From NCBI GenBank assembly GCA_003514205.1, contig DORQ01000163.1, positions 7,713 to 22,831 on the forward strand: 15,119 nucleotides of DNA. The letters run 5' to 3'. The stretch's first letter is position 1. Each line of letters begins with the position of its first letter. The translations under genes were made by a program, and so were the position numbers. The stretch is from Acidimicrobiaceae bacterium. GTDB lineage: Bacteria; Actinomycetota; Acidimicrobiia; Acidimicrobiales; Microtrichaceae. This document shows, one piece after another, positions 3,900 through 10,224 of the stretch. The notes beneath the pieces are model-generated. The model did not search any database. It had not been told where the DNA came from and saw only the letters and a list, made by a program, of their open reading frames with translations.

Positions 3900-5870
<1,971 letters not shown>

Positions 5871-6020: not shown

Positions 6021-6347
6021 TCAGGAGAAATTGTCCCGACGTGGGGTCGCGCGAACCTTGACCCGAACCGCAGTAATCCCATGTGGACCATACCGGGCAG
6101 CACATTCAGCAATCAGCCGGTCGGTTGCCCATTTCATTGCCTCGGCAGCCGTTGGTGATTGAACCTCCACCACCAACTCGCCCCGCAGAATTTGCAGAGG
6201 TTCGCTCACTGAGGCCAACCCGTCGCCAACCAGTTCGCTCCAATCGGTTGCAACAGCTTGCTCAATCGAAAGCGCACCGAGACCGAGTTGGTGTCGCAGG
6301 ACCTCGACAGACAGTGCTAGTGGGGAGGTTGGGCGCTCTCGCTTCAC
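6021..6347 (-). CDS. dciA: DciA-like DUF721 protein (Rv0004-like)
   Basis: This 108-residue protein belongs to the DUF721/DciA family, whose members help load or operate the replicative helicase DnaB in bacteria lacking DnaC/DnaI. Family hallmarks are a short basic N-terminus, the segment WSELVGDGLASVSEPLQI with Trp36 and Gly41, then LRGELVVEVQSPTAAEAMKW (54-73), a KH-like fold pattern. It starts at GTG 6347, overlapping the recF TGA by 4 nt (GTGA), with GGAGG about 10 nt upstream inside recF; coupled translation is likely. Its place between recF and gyrB is the standard actinobacterial one. It is shorter than Mycobacterium Rv0004 and lacks that protein's long N-terminal extension. The helicase role is from family knowledge, not from this sequence. 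Confidence 0.88.
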   Translation of the reverse strand: MKRERPTSPLALSVEVLRHQLGLGALSIEQAVATDWSELVGDGLASVSEPLQILRGELVVEVQSPTAAEAMKWATDRLIAECAARYGPHGITAVRVKVRATPRRDNFS

Positions 6348-7447: not shown

Positions 7448-8542
7448 TTAGGAAACCCGTACAGGCATCAAGAGGTAGAGGAAATCGACCGTATCCAAGG
7501 AACGCAACAGCGCCGGCTTCAAGGCATCCACTGTCTCAAGAGAGACCTCATCCCCAGGTGTTACTTCCAGCCCAGCAAGTAGGTAATCGGGGTTGAAAGC
7601 AACGGTGAGTTCTTCACCTTGGTACGAGCCGTCCAGTTCCTCGTGTGCTTGCCCGACATCTTGTGTGATCGCCACTAAATCCACGCCACCTTCGCGCATC
7701 GTGATCCTGACAGGTGTTGCTTCCCTAGCCATGAGCTTGACTCTACGCACGGCCTCAATCAGCTGGGATCTCCCAATGGTCAACCGGTTCGGCTGATTCT
7801 GTGGGATCAGGCCTCGGTAATTCGGGAAGTCACCATCGATCAACCGTGTGGTGAGGCGAGTGGAGCCAACAATGAAGGTCGCATCGCGCTCTCCGAGTAT
7901 CAGGGTCAGAGTCTCAGCGGCAGAAATCACTCGATTGAGCTCGTTGAGGGCTCGACCTGGAACAAGCACATTCTGACCATCAGCAAGGACAGCTGTTCCT
8001 GGCAAATCACGAACGGCAAGTCGATAGGAGTCAGTTGATACCAACCGGAGACCAGTGCCCTCAGCGGCAAGCAATACCCCGGTCAGGATCGGCCGAGAAT
8101 CGTCCGTTGACGCCGCGGGGACCACCTGACGCAACGCGTCAGTGAATTCAGAAGCCACCAGGGTGAGCGGCTCGCTCTCCGCCATAGCGATTTGAGGGTA
8201 TTCCTCCGCGGGAATCAGGTGCACAGAGAACTGCGAACGACCGCAACTGATCTTCGCCTCGGACTCTTCGGTCTCGATGCTTACCGCGCCTGGTTCAAGC
8301 GATTTCACAATATCGACTGCGAGCTTGGACGGGATCACTATCTCGCCGTCTCCAGAACCCGACACCGTCAAATCGACAGTTATCGTCAAGTCCAGATCGC
8401 TGCCGGTAACGCACAGCTGGTCACCTTTGAGTTCGCATCTCAGCCCTGAAAGGACTGGTAGCGCTCCTCCTCGTCCAGACACGGCTCGGCTTGCGGTTGC
8501 CAGTGCTTCGACAAGCACATCTCGTTCACAGCGAAACTTCAC
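7448..8542 (-). CDS. dnaN: DNA polymerase III beta subunit (sliding clamp)
   Basis: DnaN (364 residues, normal length) forms the dimeric ring that tethers the replicative polymerase and other partners to DNA. The three clamp domains are roughly 1-118, 119-245 and 246-364. Recognisable pieces are MKFRCERDVLVEAL at the N-terminus, DDSRPILTGVLL (about 147-158) at the start of domain 2, GDFPNYRGLIP (about 238-248) before domain 3 and the C-terminal YLLMPVRVS, where LMP contributes to the partner pocket. It starts at GTG 8542 with AGAGG about 7 nt upstream. The 223-bp gap before it is the proposed oriC. recF follows after 6 nt. Confidence 0.98.
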   Translation of the reverse strand: MKFRCERDVLVEALATASRAVSGRGGALPVLSGLRCELKGDQLCVTGSDLDLTITVDLTVSGSGDGEIVIPSKLAVDIVKSLEPGAVSIETEESEAKISCGRSQFSVHLIPAEEYPQIAMAESEPLTLVASEFTDALRQVVPAASTDDSRPILTGVLLAAEGTGLRLVSTDSYRLAVRDLPGTAVLADGQNVLVPGRALNELNRVISAAETLTLILGERDATFIVGSTRLTTRLIDGDFPNYRGLIPQNQPNRLTIGRSQLIEAVRRVKLMAREATPVRITMREGGVDLVAITQDVGQAHEELDGSYQGEELTVAFNPDYLLAGLEVTPGDEVSLETVDALKPALLRSLDTVDFLYLLMPVRVS

Positions 8543-8578
8543 GTTGCTGCCTCTTTCTGCCTTCGTAGTAAGTACATC

Positions 8579-8596
8579 TAGTAGTGGTAGTAGTAG
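8579..8596 (+). repeat. DnaA-trio run (TAG repeats)
   Basis: Six consecutive triplets on the plus strand read TAG TAG TGG TAG TAG TAG. They lie 4 nt from the minus-strand DnaA box CAATCCACA (8601-8609), separated by GTGC. In the known system, trios read 3'-GAT-5' on the strand that DnaA grips after binding the adjacent double-stranded box, and the polarity and spacing here fit. More TA-steps continue to about 8566 out of register. The region is non-coding, so codon bias cannot explain the period of three. Confidence 0.75.
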
Positions 8597-8600
8597 GTGC

Positions 8601-8616
8601 TGTGGATTGTGGAGAA
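8601..8616 (-). promoter_or_regulatory. Pair of minus-strand DnaA boxes beside the trios
   Basis: Minus-strand TTCTCCACA (8608-8616) matches the consensus TTATCCACA at 8 of 9 positions. The next, CAATCCACA (8601-8609), matches at 7 of 9. They overlap by 2 bp, start 7 bp apart and both face the TAG trios. This is the placement of the anchor boxes from which a DnaA filament would enter the trios. Confidence 0.65.
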
Positions 8617-8645
8617 CCTAGCTGGTCCCCAGTCGTGGCGGGCTT

Positions 8646-8668
8646 TGGCTGTCCACTGGCTGTCCACT
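8646..8668 (+). repeat. Tandem 11-bp repeat carrying weak DnaA boxes
   Basis: The 11-mer TGGCTGTCCAC occurs twice head to tail (8646-8656, 8657-8667). Each copy gives CTGTCCACT, 7 of 9 to the actinobacterial form TTGTCCACA. The 11-bp period puts both sites on the same face of the helix, which favours cooperative binding. Confidence 0.55.
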
Positions 8669-8685
8669 TCATCCCCAACCCAAGT

Positions 8686-8710
8686 TTGAAATTTCAACAA
8701 TGTCTGTTGA
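8686..8710. other. AT-rich palindromic patch in oriC
   Basis: A perfect 12-bp palindrome TTGAAATTTCAA (8686-8697) overlaps a second inverted repeat, TCAACA/TGTTGA (8694-8699 and 8705-8710, 5-nt loop). This is the most AT-rich part of the oriC gap. It may be a protein site or aid melting; the sequence does not decide. Confidence 0.4.
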
Positions 8711-8755
8711 TTGCATCGCGGTTGTCCCGCTGATATTCACGACAAATACCGCTAG

Positions 8756-8764
8756 TTATCCACA
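8756..8764 (+). promoter_or_regulatory. Consensus DnaA box
   Basis: TTATCCACA is an exact match to the DnaA-box consensus, 1 bp beyond the end of the dnaA stop codon. It is the strongest single box in the origin gap. Confidence 0.8.
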
Positions 8765-8765
8765 A

Positions 8766-10175
8766 TTACCCAGCCTTGAGTTGTTTAATGAGCTCGGTCA
8801 CGTCCTCGTACACCGTGACCTTCTCGGCCATTGACTTCTTGATCTTCTCGAAACCGTGAATGATCGTCGTGTGGTCTCGCCCACCGAACTCTGCAGCGAT
8901 CTGAGGAAAACTGAGGTCAGTGAGTTCTCGAAAAAGATAGAACGCCACGTGACGGGCGAGTACCAGCGGTCGACGCCGATCATGGGCTCTGAGTTCGTCG
9001 ACAGTGAAGTCATAACGATTCGCCGTAGCTTCAAGAATCCCAATGGGTGTGATCTTGTGGGGCCGTCGAGTTTGGATGAGGTCGCCAAGTACTCGCTCAA
9101 CGTCGTCGACGGTCATTTCGGTGCGATTGAGTGTGATGTAGGCGGTGACTCGATTCAAGGCCCCTTCGAGTTCGCGAATGTTGTTGGTCACATGAGTGAC
9201 GATGAATTCAAGCACTGTGCTCGGGATTGGTGTGTTCCCTTGAGCGGCCTTCTTACGAAGAATGGCCAGCCTAGTTTCGAAATCTGGTGGTTGAATGTCG
9301 GTGACCAGACCCATCTTGAAACGACTACGAAGCCGATCCTCAAGTGTCGCAACAGCGTCCGGCGGTCGGTCGGAGCTGAGCACGATCTGGCGATTCGCCT
9401 CGTGCAAGGTATTGAAGGTGTGGAAGAACTCCTCCTGCAACTGCTCCTTGCCTTCCATGAACTGCACATCGTCGACTAGGAGGACGTCGATCTCCCGGTA
9501 CCTTCGCTTGAACTCAGCTTGGCGGTTGTTCCGAATTGCGTCGATGAACTCGTTCATCAGGGTCTCTGTTGATATGTATCGGACTCGGTAGGTCGGATAG
9601 TTCTCGTTCACATAGTGAGCGATTGCCTGAAGAAGGTGAGTCTTGCCAAGTCCTGCGGACCCGTAGACGAAAAGAGGGTTGTACGACCGAGCTGGCTGTT
9701 CCGCAACGGACAAAGCAGCTGCCTGAGCGAAGCGATTAGACGGCCCGGTAACAAAGGAGTCAAAGGTGTATTTGGTGTTGAGGTTCCCTGCGCGTTCCGC
9801 GTTAACCACTGGTGGCGGTGCGGAGATCGACTCCAGATGACTTCCCGAAGAAATTGCCTCATTAGTCAGGTCAATGAGGGATTGATCCAAGTCATGTTGA
9901 TATGAACCGTCTGGTTCTGTCTCGAGGAGCCGAAGCTCGAGGCCCAATTCCTGGTAGCCGGAGTCGACGATGCTGGACATGACGAGATCTCGGTAGCGCT
10001 GTTCGATACGGTCTCGGATGAATGAACTCGGAACAGAAACCGTCACGCAGTTTTCGTCTAGGTAGAGGCCACGTGTTTCAGAGAAGATCCCGAGCCATAC
10101 ACCCTCGGACACTTCGCCGCGGATATGATCGCAAACAGAATTCCACAGCGTCTCGGCTGGATTAACTACCGTCAC
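8766..10175 (-). CDS. dnaA: Chromosomal replication initiator DnaA
   Basis: DnaA (469 residues from this start) is the AAA+ initiator that binds DnaA boxes and melts oriC. Domain I is about 1-85, a short acidic linker (domain II) about 86-130, and the AAA+ domain follows with Walker A GSAGLGKTH (172-180), Walker B VLLVDD (231-236), sensor 1 IVLSSD (264-269) and an arginine-finger region EDRLRSRF (279-286). Domain IV carries the signature GGRDHTTIIHG (431-441) for box recognition. The linker is much shorter than in Streptomyces. I chose GTG 10175 because AGGAGG (10183-10188) lies 7 nt upstream. GTG 10181 is in frame but only 1 nt from that site. DnaA boxes lie on both sides of the gene, which suggests autoregulation. 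Confidence 0.98.
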   Translation of the reverse strand: MTVVNPAETLWNSVCDHIRGEVSEGVWLGIFSETRGLYLDENCVTVSVPSSFIRDRIEQRYRDLVMSSIVDSGYQELGLELRLLETEPDGSYQHDLDQSLIDLTNEAISSGSHLESISAPPPVVNAERAGNLNTKYTFDSFVTGPSNRFAQAAALSVAEQPARSYNPLFVYGSAGLGKTHLLQAIAHYVNENYPTYRVRYISTETLMNEFIDAIRNNRQAEFKRRYREIDVLLVDDVQFMEGKEQLQEEFFHTFNTLHEANRQIVLSSDRPPDAVATLEDRLRSRFKMGLVTDIQPPDFETRLAILRKKAAQGNTPIPSTVLEFIVTHVTNNIRELEGALNRVTAYITLNRTEMTVDDVERVLGDLIQTRRPHKITPIGILEATANRYDFTVDELRAHDRRRPLVLARHVAFYLFRELTDLSFPQIAAEFGGRDHTTIIHGFEKIKKSMAEKVTVYEDVTELIKQLKAG

Positions 10176-10193
10176 CGGCACGCCTCCTTGGAA

Positions 10194-10224
10194 CTGTCCA
10201 CACTAAATCCACAGCTGTGGAAAA
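10194..10224. promoter_or_regulatory. DnaA-box cluster upstream of dnaA
   Basis: Three sites lie within 31 bp: CTGTCCACA (10194-10202, plus, 8 of 9 to TTGTCCACA), AAATCCACA (10205-10213, plus, 7 of 9 to TTATCCACA) and TTTTCCACA on the minus strand (10216-10224, 8 of 9). The last two face each other and create a perfect 14-bp palindrome TCCACAGCTGTGGA (10209-10222). The cluster is about 20-50 bp before the dnaA start, just downstream of or overlapping its likely promoter, so DnaA could repress its own gene here. Confidence 0.65.

Follow-up and report, generated by a model that had tools for sequence, protein, structure and literature searches.

Where does the chromosome of this Acidimicrobiaceae bacterium open for replication, and is the element that would open it of a known kind? 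The question is raised by the window (the whole stretch of 15,119 nucleotides analysed in this study), in which a run of TAG triplets beside DnaA boxes had been read, in a preliminary description, as the unwinding site of an actinobacterial oriC. We conclude that the region 8566-8616 is very probably the basal unwinding system (BUS) of the chromosome origin, a function predicted from its sequence. The earlier reading is supported by the anatomy of the region, by its improbability, by its conservation and by the residues of the DnaA protein, and melting by DnaA is presumed on these grounds.

Gene neighbourhood of the window

The source genome comprises 3.42 Mb in 367 contigs and is 85% complete. 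Both dnaA (8766..10181; TIGR00362) and dnaN (7448..8542; TIGR00663) lie on the minus strand. On one flank there are rpmH, rnpA, yidD and yidC together with jag-like and rsmG-like genes, the latter two under the NCBIfam cut-off, and on the other flank there are recF, dciA, gyrB and gyrA. The gene neighbourhood alone (rpmH-dnaA-dnaN-recF-gyrB-gyrA) places oriC here. The dciA gene (6021..6347, minus strand; PF05258, E 2e-11) is beside recF, and its product is possibly the helicase-loading partner. In addition, the gyrB coding sequence contains TCATCCACA at 12 bp from a perfect TTATCCACA (5671-5691, plus strand), and this pair could titrate DnaA.

The word actinobacterial proved right. A DnaA relative was present in 28 named loci, 26 of them titled Actinomycetota and the other two Kuenenbacteria. 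Several of the 26 were Microthrixaceae, a family of the class Acidimicrobiia, and the named kin were mostly Acidimicrobiia. Two loci (L013 and L021) were titled Bifidobacterium breve, with dnaA 60% and 59% identical to that of the window. These are probably mislabelled MAGs, because such a dnaA is found there together with an Acidimicrobiia-like oriC gap.

Anatomy of the dnaA-dnaN gap

The gap between dnaA and dnaN (8543-8765, 223 nt) holds both the trios and the box pair. Six DnaA-trios occupy 8579..8596 on the plus strand and read TAG TAG TGG TAG TAG TAG, so the five TAG triplets of six first described are exact. This is the strand that DnaA would capture. A 4-nt spacer (8597..8600) follows, which is GTGC on the plus strand and GCAC on the minus strand, the one read from dnaA to dnaN; this is the distance given before. 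Recomputation also returned the two overlapping minus-strand DnaA boxes. The trio-proximal box CAATCCACA (8601..8609) agrees at 7/9 places and the second box TTCTCCACA (8608..8616) at 8/9, and they share 2 nt. Thus, the weaker box of the pair is the one nearest the trios. In the direction from dnaA to dnaN, the whole reads TTCTCCACAATCCACA-GCAC-CTACTACTACCACTACTA.

From the box outward (8596 downwards), the trios are 3'-GAT GAT GAT GGT GAT GAT-5', and the middle base of trio 4 is G. The box lies at the 3' side of the TAG run, and on the captured strand the trios lead away from it in the 3' to 5' direction. Order, polarity and location, which had been claimed to agree with published BUS, all match them (box pair, short spacer, trios); that of Bacillus subtilis is also located between dnaA and dnaN. 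The BUS rule, in the excerpts of PMC8287927, asks for a DnaA box with no more than two mismatches beside the trios. Here, TTCTCCACA has one mismatch and CAATCCACA has two. Furthermore, trios 1-3 are all 3'-GAT-5', where at least three consecutive 3'-NAN-5' trios are expected, and the trios are 4 bp from the near box and 11 bp from the better one, within the expected 16 bp.

Other box-like sites are present as well. A perfect DnaA box TTATCCACA (8756..8764, plus strand) adjoins the dnaA stop codon. Between it and the BUS, AGTGGACAGCC occurs twice head to tail (8647-8668, minus strand) with an 11-bp period, as weak inverted box-like sites. Upstream of dnaA there are three weaker box-like sites (10194-10202 and 10205-10213 on the plus strand, 10216-10224 on the minus strand). 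Possibly they form the second half of a bipartite origin, serve dnaA control, or both.

Chance expectation and duplex stability

On both strands of the window, there was only one site with at least five TAG triplets of six, and none of 300 dinucleotide-preserving shuffles of the window contained such a run. By nearest-neighbour sum, no 30-bp stretch of the window is less stable than 8566..8595 (rank 1/15090), and no 18-mer is weaker than 8566-8583 (rank 1/15102); both run into the trios. The 30-bp stretch is likely the unwinding element. Longer stretches touching the trios are not the weakest (the best 40-mer ranks 5 and the best 60-mer 7), and the AT content of the bases between the trios and dnaN is only 53%.

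Conservation of boxes and trios among relatives

DNA upstream of dnaN was compared in two sets. The family set contained 30 genomes including the window, three of 33 having been left out for want of the locus. The order set contained 105 other genomes (the best 29 loci and 76 further rows, intended as one per genus); it is not a random sample, as the list behind it stopped short of the weakest matches. Loci L007-L034, which are duplicates of other genomes or Kuenenbacteria, stand outside all counts.

In the 400 nt before dnaN, the core of the box pair (CCACAATCCACA, at most two mismatches) was present in 29/30 genomes of the family and 99/105 of the order, compared with 1.3% (n = 150) and 3.8% (n = 525) of the respective shuffles. 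The pair was followed by at least two C/T-T-A triplets of six in 28/30 and 84/105 genomes, and by at least three in 14/30 and 44/105; the latter occurred in 0/150 and 0/525 shuffles. Strict trios are thus often few, with fewer than three of six in 16/30 family and 61/105 order genomes. The seven of 135 genomes in which the box pair is absent keep at least two CTA triplets near a box-like site, and no convincing trios were seen in three of the 128 genomes with the pair (L070, L132 and L172). Hence the period is kept beside the boxes in kin; its absence from relatives would have spoken against the earlier reading.

For a count by position, the pair was chosen without regard to the trios and the spacer was fixed at 4 nt. 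In the order, the middle base of trios 1-5 was A in 80, 76, 38, 49 and 60 of 99 genomes and G in 3, 5, 38, 33 and 24, so at trio 3 G is as frequent as A. In the family, A was found in 17, 26, 27, 20 and 11 of 29. When the spacer was picked to favour trios, 4 nt was best in 80/99 order genomes, and 13/29 family genomes were best read from a 7-nt spacer, since the first trio is poor at 4 nt in many of them. In a column profile of 96 non-redundant order sequences, the pair and a spacer resembling GCCC are followed by T in each third column (81%, 77%, 38%, 49% and 60%, against a background of 18%) and, further on, by an AT-leaning stretch. Both the profile and the best-spacer comparison favour trios, because the trios themselves had a part in the choice of the pair or the spacer.

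The flanks drift more than the element. Between the window and six kin (L035-L040), 13-16 of 16 places are identical in the boxes and 11-13 of 18 in the trio region, against 21-31 of 56 upstream and 4-10 of 19 downstream. Conservation is weaker from trio 3 on. This strength of the trios near the box agrees with 3'-GAT-5' being commonest there (PMC8287927, excerpts). On the other hand, a change from A to G in trios 1-3 is described in the excerpts of PMC10721633 as impairing the B. subtilis origin. A middle G is therefore awkward for the BUS reading, and trio 4 of the window also has one.

Irrespective of the distance to dnaN, the pattern CAATCCACA-N3..5-CTACTA (box half-site, 3-5 nt, CTACTA) gave 104 sites in 104/296 genomes of the class, and the backwards pattern used as control gave two sites in 2/296. 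The BUS pattern was the criterion by which 20 loci of the class were chosen, so they are unfit for measuring its frequency. One small-genome family (f65, 0.6-1.1 Mb) has the pattern in 1/42 genomes, as counted from the table, which suggests that its origin may differ. Outside the class of the window, the distance between the two boxes often seems to be 8-9 bp rather than 7 bp (L300-L319 and L320-L349; seen by inspection).

DnaA residues and GC skew

In an alignment with B. subtilis DnaA (8btg), nine of ten compared residues are identical in the DnaA of the window (E183, N187, I190, I193, N196, K222, E223, E228 and R264). The tenth, R202 of B. subtilis, is K225 here; the query numbering is shifted by +23, as taken from the alignment. 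The compared residues are named for contacts with trios, backbone or ATP in the excerpts of PMC10721633 and PMC8287927.

GC skew was sampled in 40 stretches in each of two closed relatives. In G005 (600 kb of 4.66 Mb sampled), the minimum is at about 2.00 Mb and dnaN at 2.84 Mb, 0.84 Mb apart (permutation p 0.16). In G038 (800 kb of 4.78 Mb sampled), the minimum is at about 0.12 Mb and the maximum at about 2.15 Mb (p 0.14), and dnaN at 4.68 Mb is about 0.21 Mb from the sampled minimum. Neither result is significant, so the skew speaks neither for nor against an origin at dnaA-dnaN; an origin placed elsewhere by skew would have counted against the earlier reading.

Alternative explanations

The conserved block could be a promoter or leader of dnaN in which the triplet look is incidental, and such a role could coexist with a BUS. 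It is true that the block stops 36 nt short of dnaN, and that a further conserved block, GTGGGGAAAG[C/T]GA, ends 6-7 nt ahead of the start codon in 17/30 family genomes and resembles a translation leader. However, this second block is separate from the BUS and was found in 0/105 order genomes outside the family. In addition, the conserved columns are those of the DnaA boxes followed by a 3-nt period, and by eye the order profile shows nothing like a -10 TANNNT suitably spaced from the motif upstream of the boxes. We consider a promoter or leader as the whole explanation improbable. The GTGGGGAAAG[C/T]GA block occurs among the family loci L035-L063 and is absent from the window; in nine of the 17 cases it extends to AGTAGTGGGG..., mirroring the trio run.

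The region might instead be a site where DnaA binds for regulation (dnaN control or titration), with melting in the rpmH-dnaA gap, which also has three box-like sites. Yet that gap is 44% AT, is more stable (-1.475 vs -1.396 per step) and has no run of five TAG in six, and we regard this explanation as very unlikely. Triplet repeats can also expand by slippage, and the run might be no more than a functionless slipped-strand repeat. We regard this as extremely unlikely, for the run is imperfect, boxes adjoin it across many families, and the period persists where the flanks drift.

Proposed opening of the origin

Under the BUS reading, the steps of opening can be proposed by analogy with B. subtilis and other species, from which DnaA binding, filament growth, melting and helicase loading are all inferred. 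Two DnaA molecules would occupy the overlapping boxes (8601-8616). Their AAA+ domains would seed an ATP-dependent filament, starting at 8596 and growing along the plus strand in the direction of dnaN, with one protomer per trio. By capturing the first two bases of each 3'-GAT-5', this filament would melt the weak stretch at about 8566-8596. The helicase would then enter after melting, probably loaded with the DciA encoded at 6021-6347.

A motif upstream of the boxes

A non-box motif, AC(C)[A/T]G[C/G], was found at a fixed place 11-12 nt before the first box in two actinobacterial classes. In the order profile, positions -24 to -17 from the core are T 62, G 61, A 82, C 70, C 91, T 54 or A 34, G 88, and C 59 or G 40 percent. 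ACC[AT]G[CG] starts exactly at -22 in 55/99 order genomes, and the next commonest offset has 3. With one or two C allowed, 11 or 12 nt separate the end of the motif from the first box in 59/99, compared with an average of 0.70 and a maximum of 11 genomes at other spacings. The same place was occupied in 10/20 genomes from other orders of the class. In the family, it was occupied in 8/29, and here the case for the motif is weak because a spacing of 30 nt is as frequent as one of 11 nt (six genomes each).

In another class, 17/30 genomes have the motif (14 at 11 nt and 3 at 12 nt), anchored on a loose box-like pattern. These are the 30 best DnaN matches of 79 genomes, several from one family. 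On the opposite strand there, 1 and 0 genomes were found at 11 and 12 nt, with a mean of 1.05 per spacing. Loose patterns do coincide, since a separate peak is seen on that strand, at 1 nt in 10 genomes. The exact arrangement GACC[AT]G[CG]-N12-box pair was present in 27/296 class genomes and 0 in the control. On the coding strand, GACC[AT]G[CG] was seen in 3/20 genomes from other families of the phylum and in 0/5 genomes of the class of G477. Three genomes (G477, G461 and G475) are shared by the phylum set (L300-L319) and later sets.

Within 450 nt of dnaN, GACC[AT]G[CG] was present on the coding strand in 85/105 order genomes against 65/105 on the other strand, and in the other class in 19 against 13 of 30; in shuffles, about 21-22% had it. 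From the frequencies on the opposite strand and in shuffles, mere presence proves little and the fixed position alone tells. The position-locked motif was seen among the loci L064-L092, L123-L198 and L320-L349. The window has its own copy, ACTGG (8629..8633, minus strand), 12 nt before the first box. A second match there, GACCAGC (8621..8627, minus strand), has an unusual spacing of 4 nt.

Some explanations of the motif were tried and rejected. No fold explains it, as the mean hairpin z was 0.10 vs -0.62 for a control stretch (n = 99), and by eye the order profile offers no -10 that would make it part of a promoter. The excerpts of PMC4285127 give TGGCSNGWWY as the AdpA site and GTCACAGCG as the MtrA site. 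The first half of the AdpA site resembles the motif, but the third place of the motif is A, not G, in 82%, and we keep this as a lead only. A literature search with the literal TGACCTGC and oriC gave no replication-origin title among the matches listed, the letters having matched inside words, and no description of the motif was found in the open-licence literature.

We tentatively propose, though the odds seem to us somewhat against it, that a sequence of about the form (C/T)TGACC[A/T]G[C/G], fixed at 11-12 nt ahead of the first box in two classes, is a third BUS element in Actinomycetota. Its role would be to set or license the opening of the origin, through an unknown binding partner or an unusual contact with DnaA.

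Comparison with known origins

The B. subtilis BUS agrees in its pair of co-oriented boxes, its short spacer, its six trios and their polarity, according to the excerpts of PMC6669920, PMC8287927 and PMC10721633. The window differs from it by 53% AT after the trios, the middle G of trio 4, a lysine at R202 and a DciA encoded beside recF. We had considered the overlap of the two boxes as a novelty and rejected it, because boxes 6 and 7 of B. subtilis also overlap (PMC8235120, excerpts).

The closest printed sequence belongs to Clostridioides difficile, a bacterium of another phylum. Its oriC2 has the trio sequence 5'-CACCTACTACTATTACTACTATGA-3' in the excerpts of PMC7561715, nearly the CACCTACTACTACCACTACTAGATG of the window; DnaA-dependent unwinding is demonstrated there and predicted for the window. 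Kocuria and Streptomyces are both outside Acidimicrobiia, and the Streptomyces origin has reportedly two putative unwinding elements (Plachetka 2019). By its description, the oriC prediction of Kocuria rhizophila is alike, with a DUE, trio motifs and two box arrays between dnaA and dnaN (PMC12500396, excerpts). The region in the window is very probably an origin-opening module of a known kind, with the upstream motif as the part that may be new.

Implications

Should the motif before the boxes prove functional, part of a large phylum would open its origins with a component that nobody was found to name. We know of no BUS test in the lineage of the window and, to our knowledge, none of the species in which BUS was tested biochemically belongs to Acidimicrobiia. 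The excerpts of PMC8287927 name B. subtilis, S. aureus, L. monocytogenes, E. faecalis, H. pylori, S. elongatus and D. radiodurans. The present results extend the BUS, by sequence, to Acidimicrobiia. Furthermore, the naturally varied trios, such as the middle G at trio 3 in 38/99 order genomes, question how strict nucleobase capture by DnaA would be.
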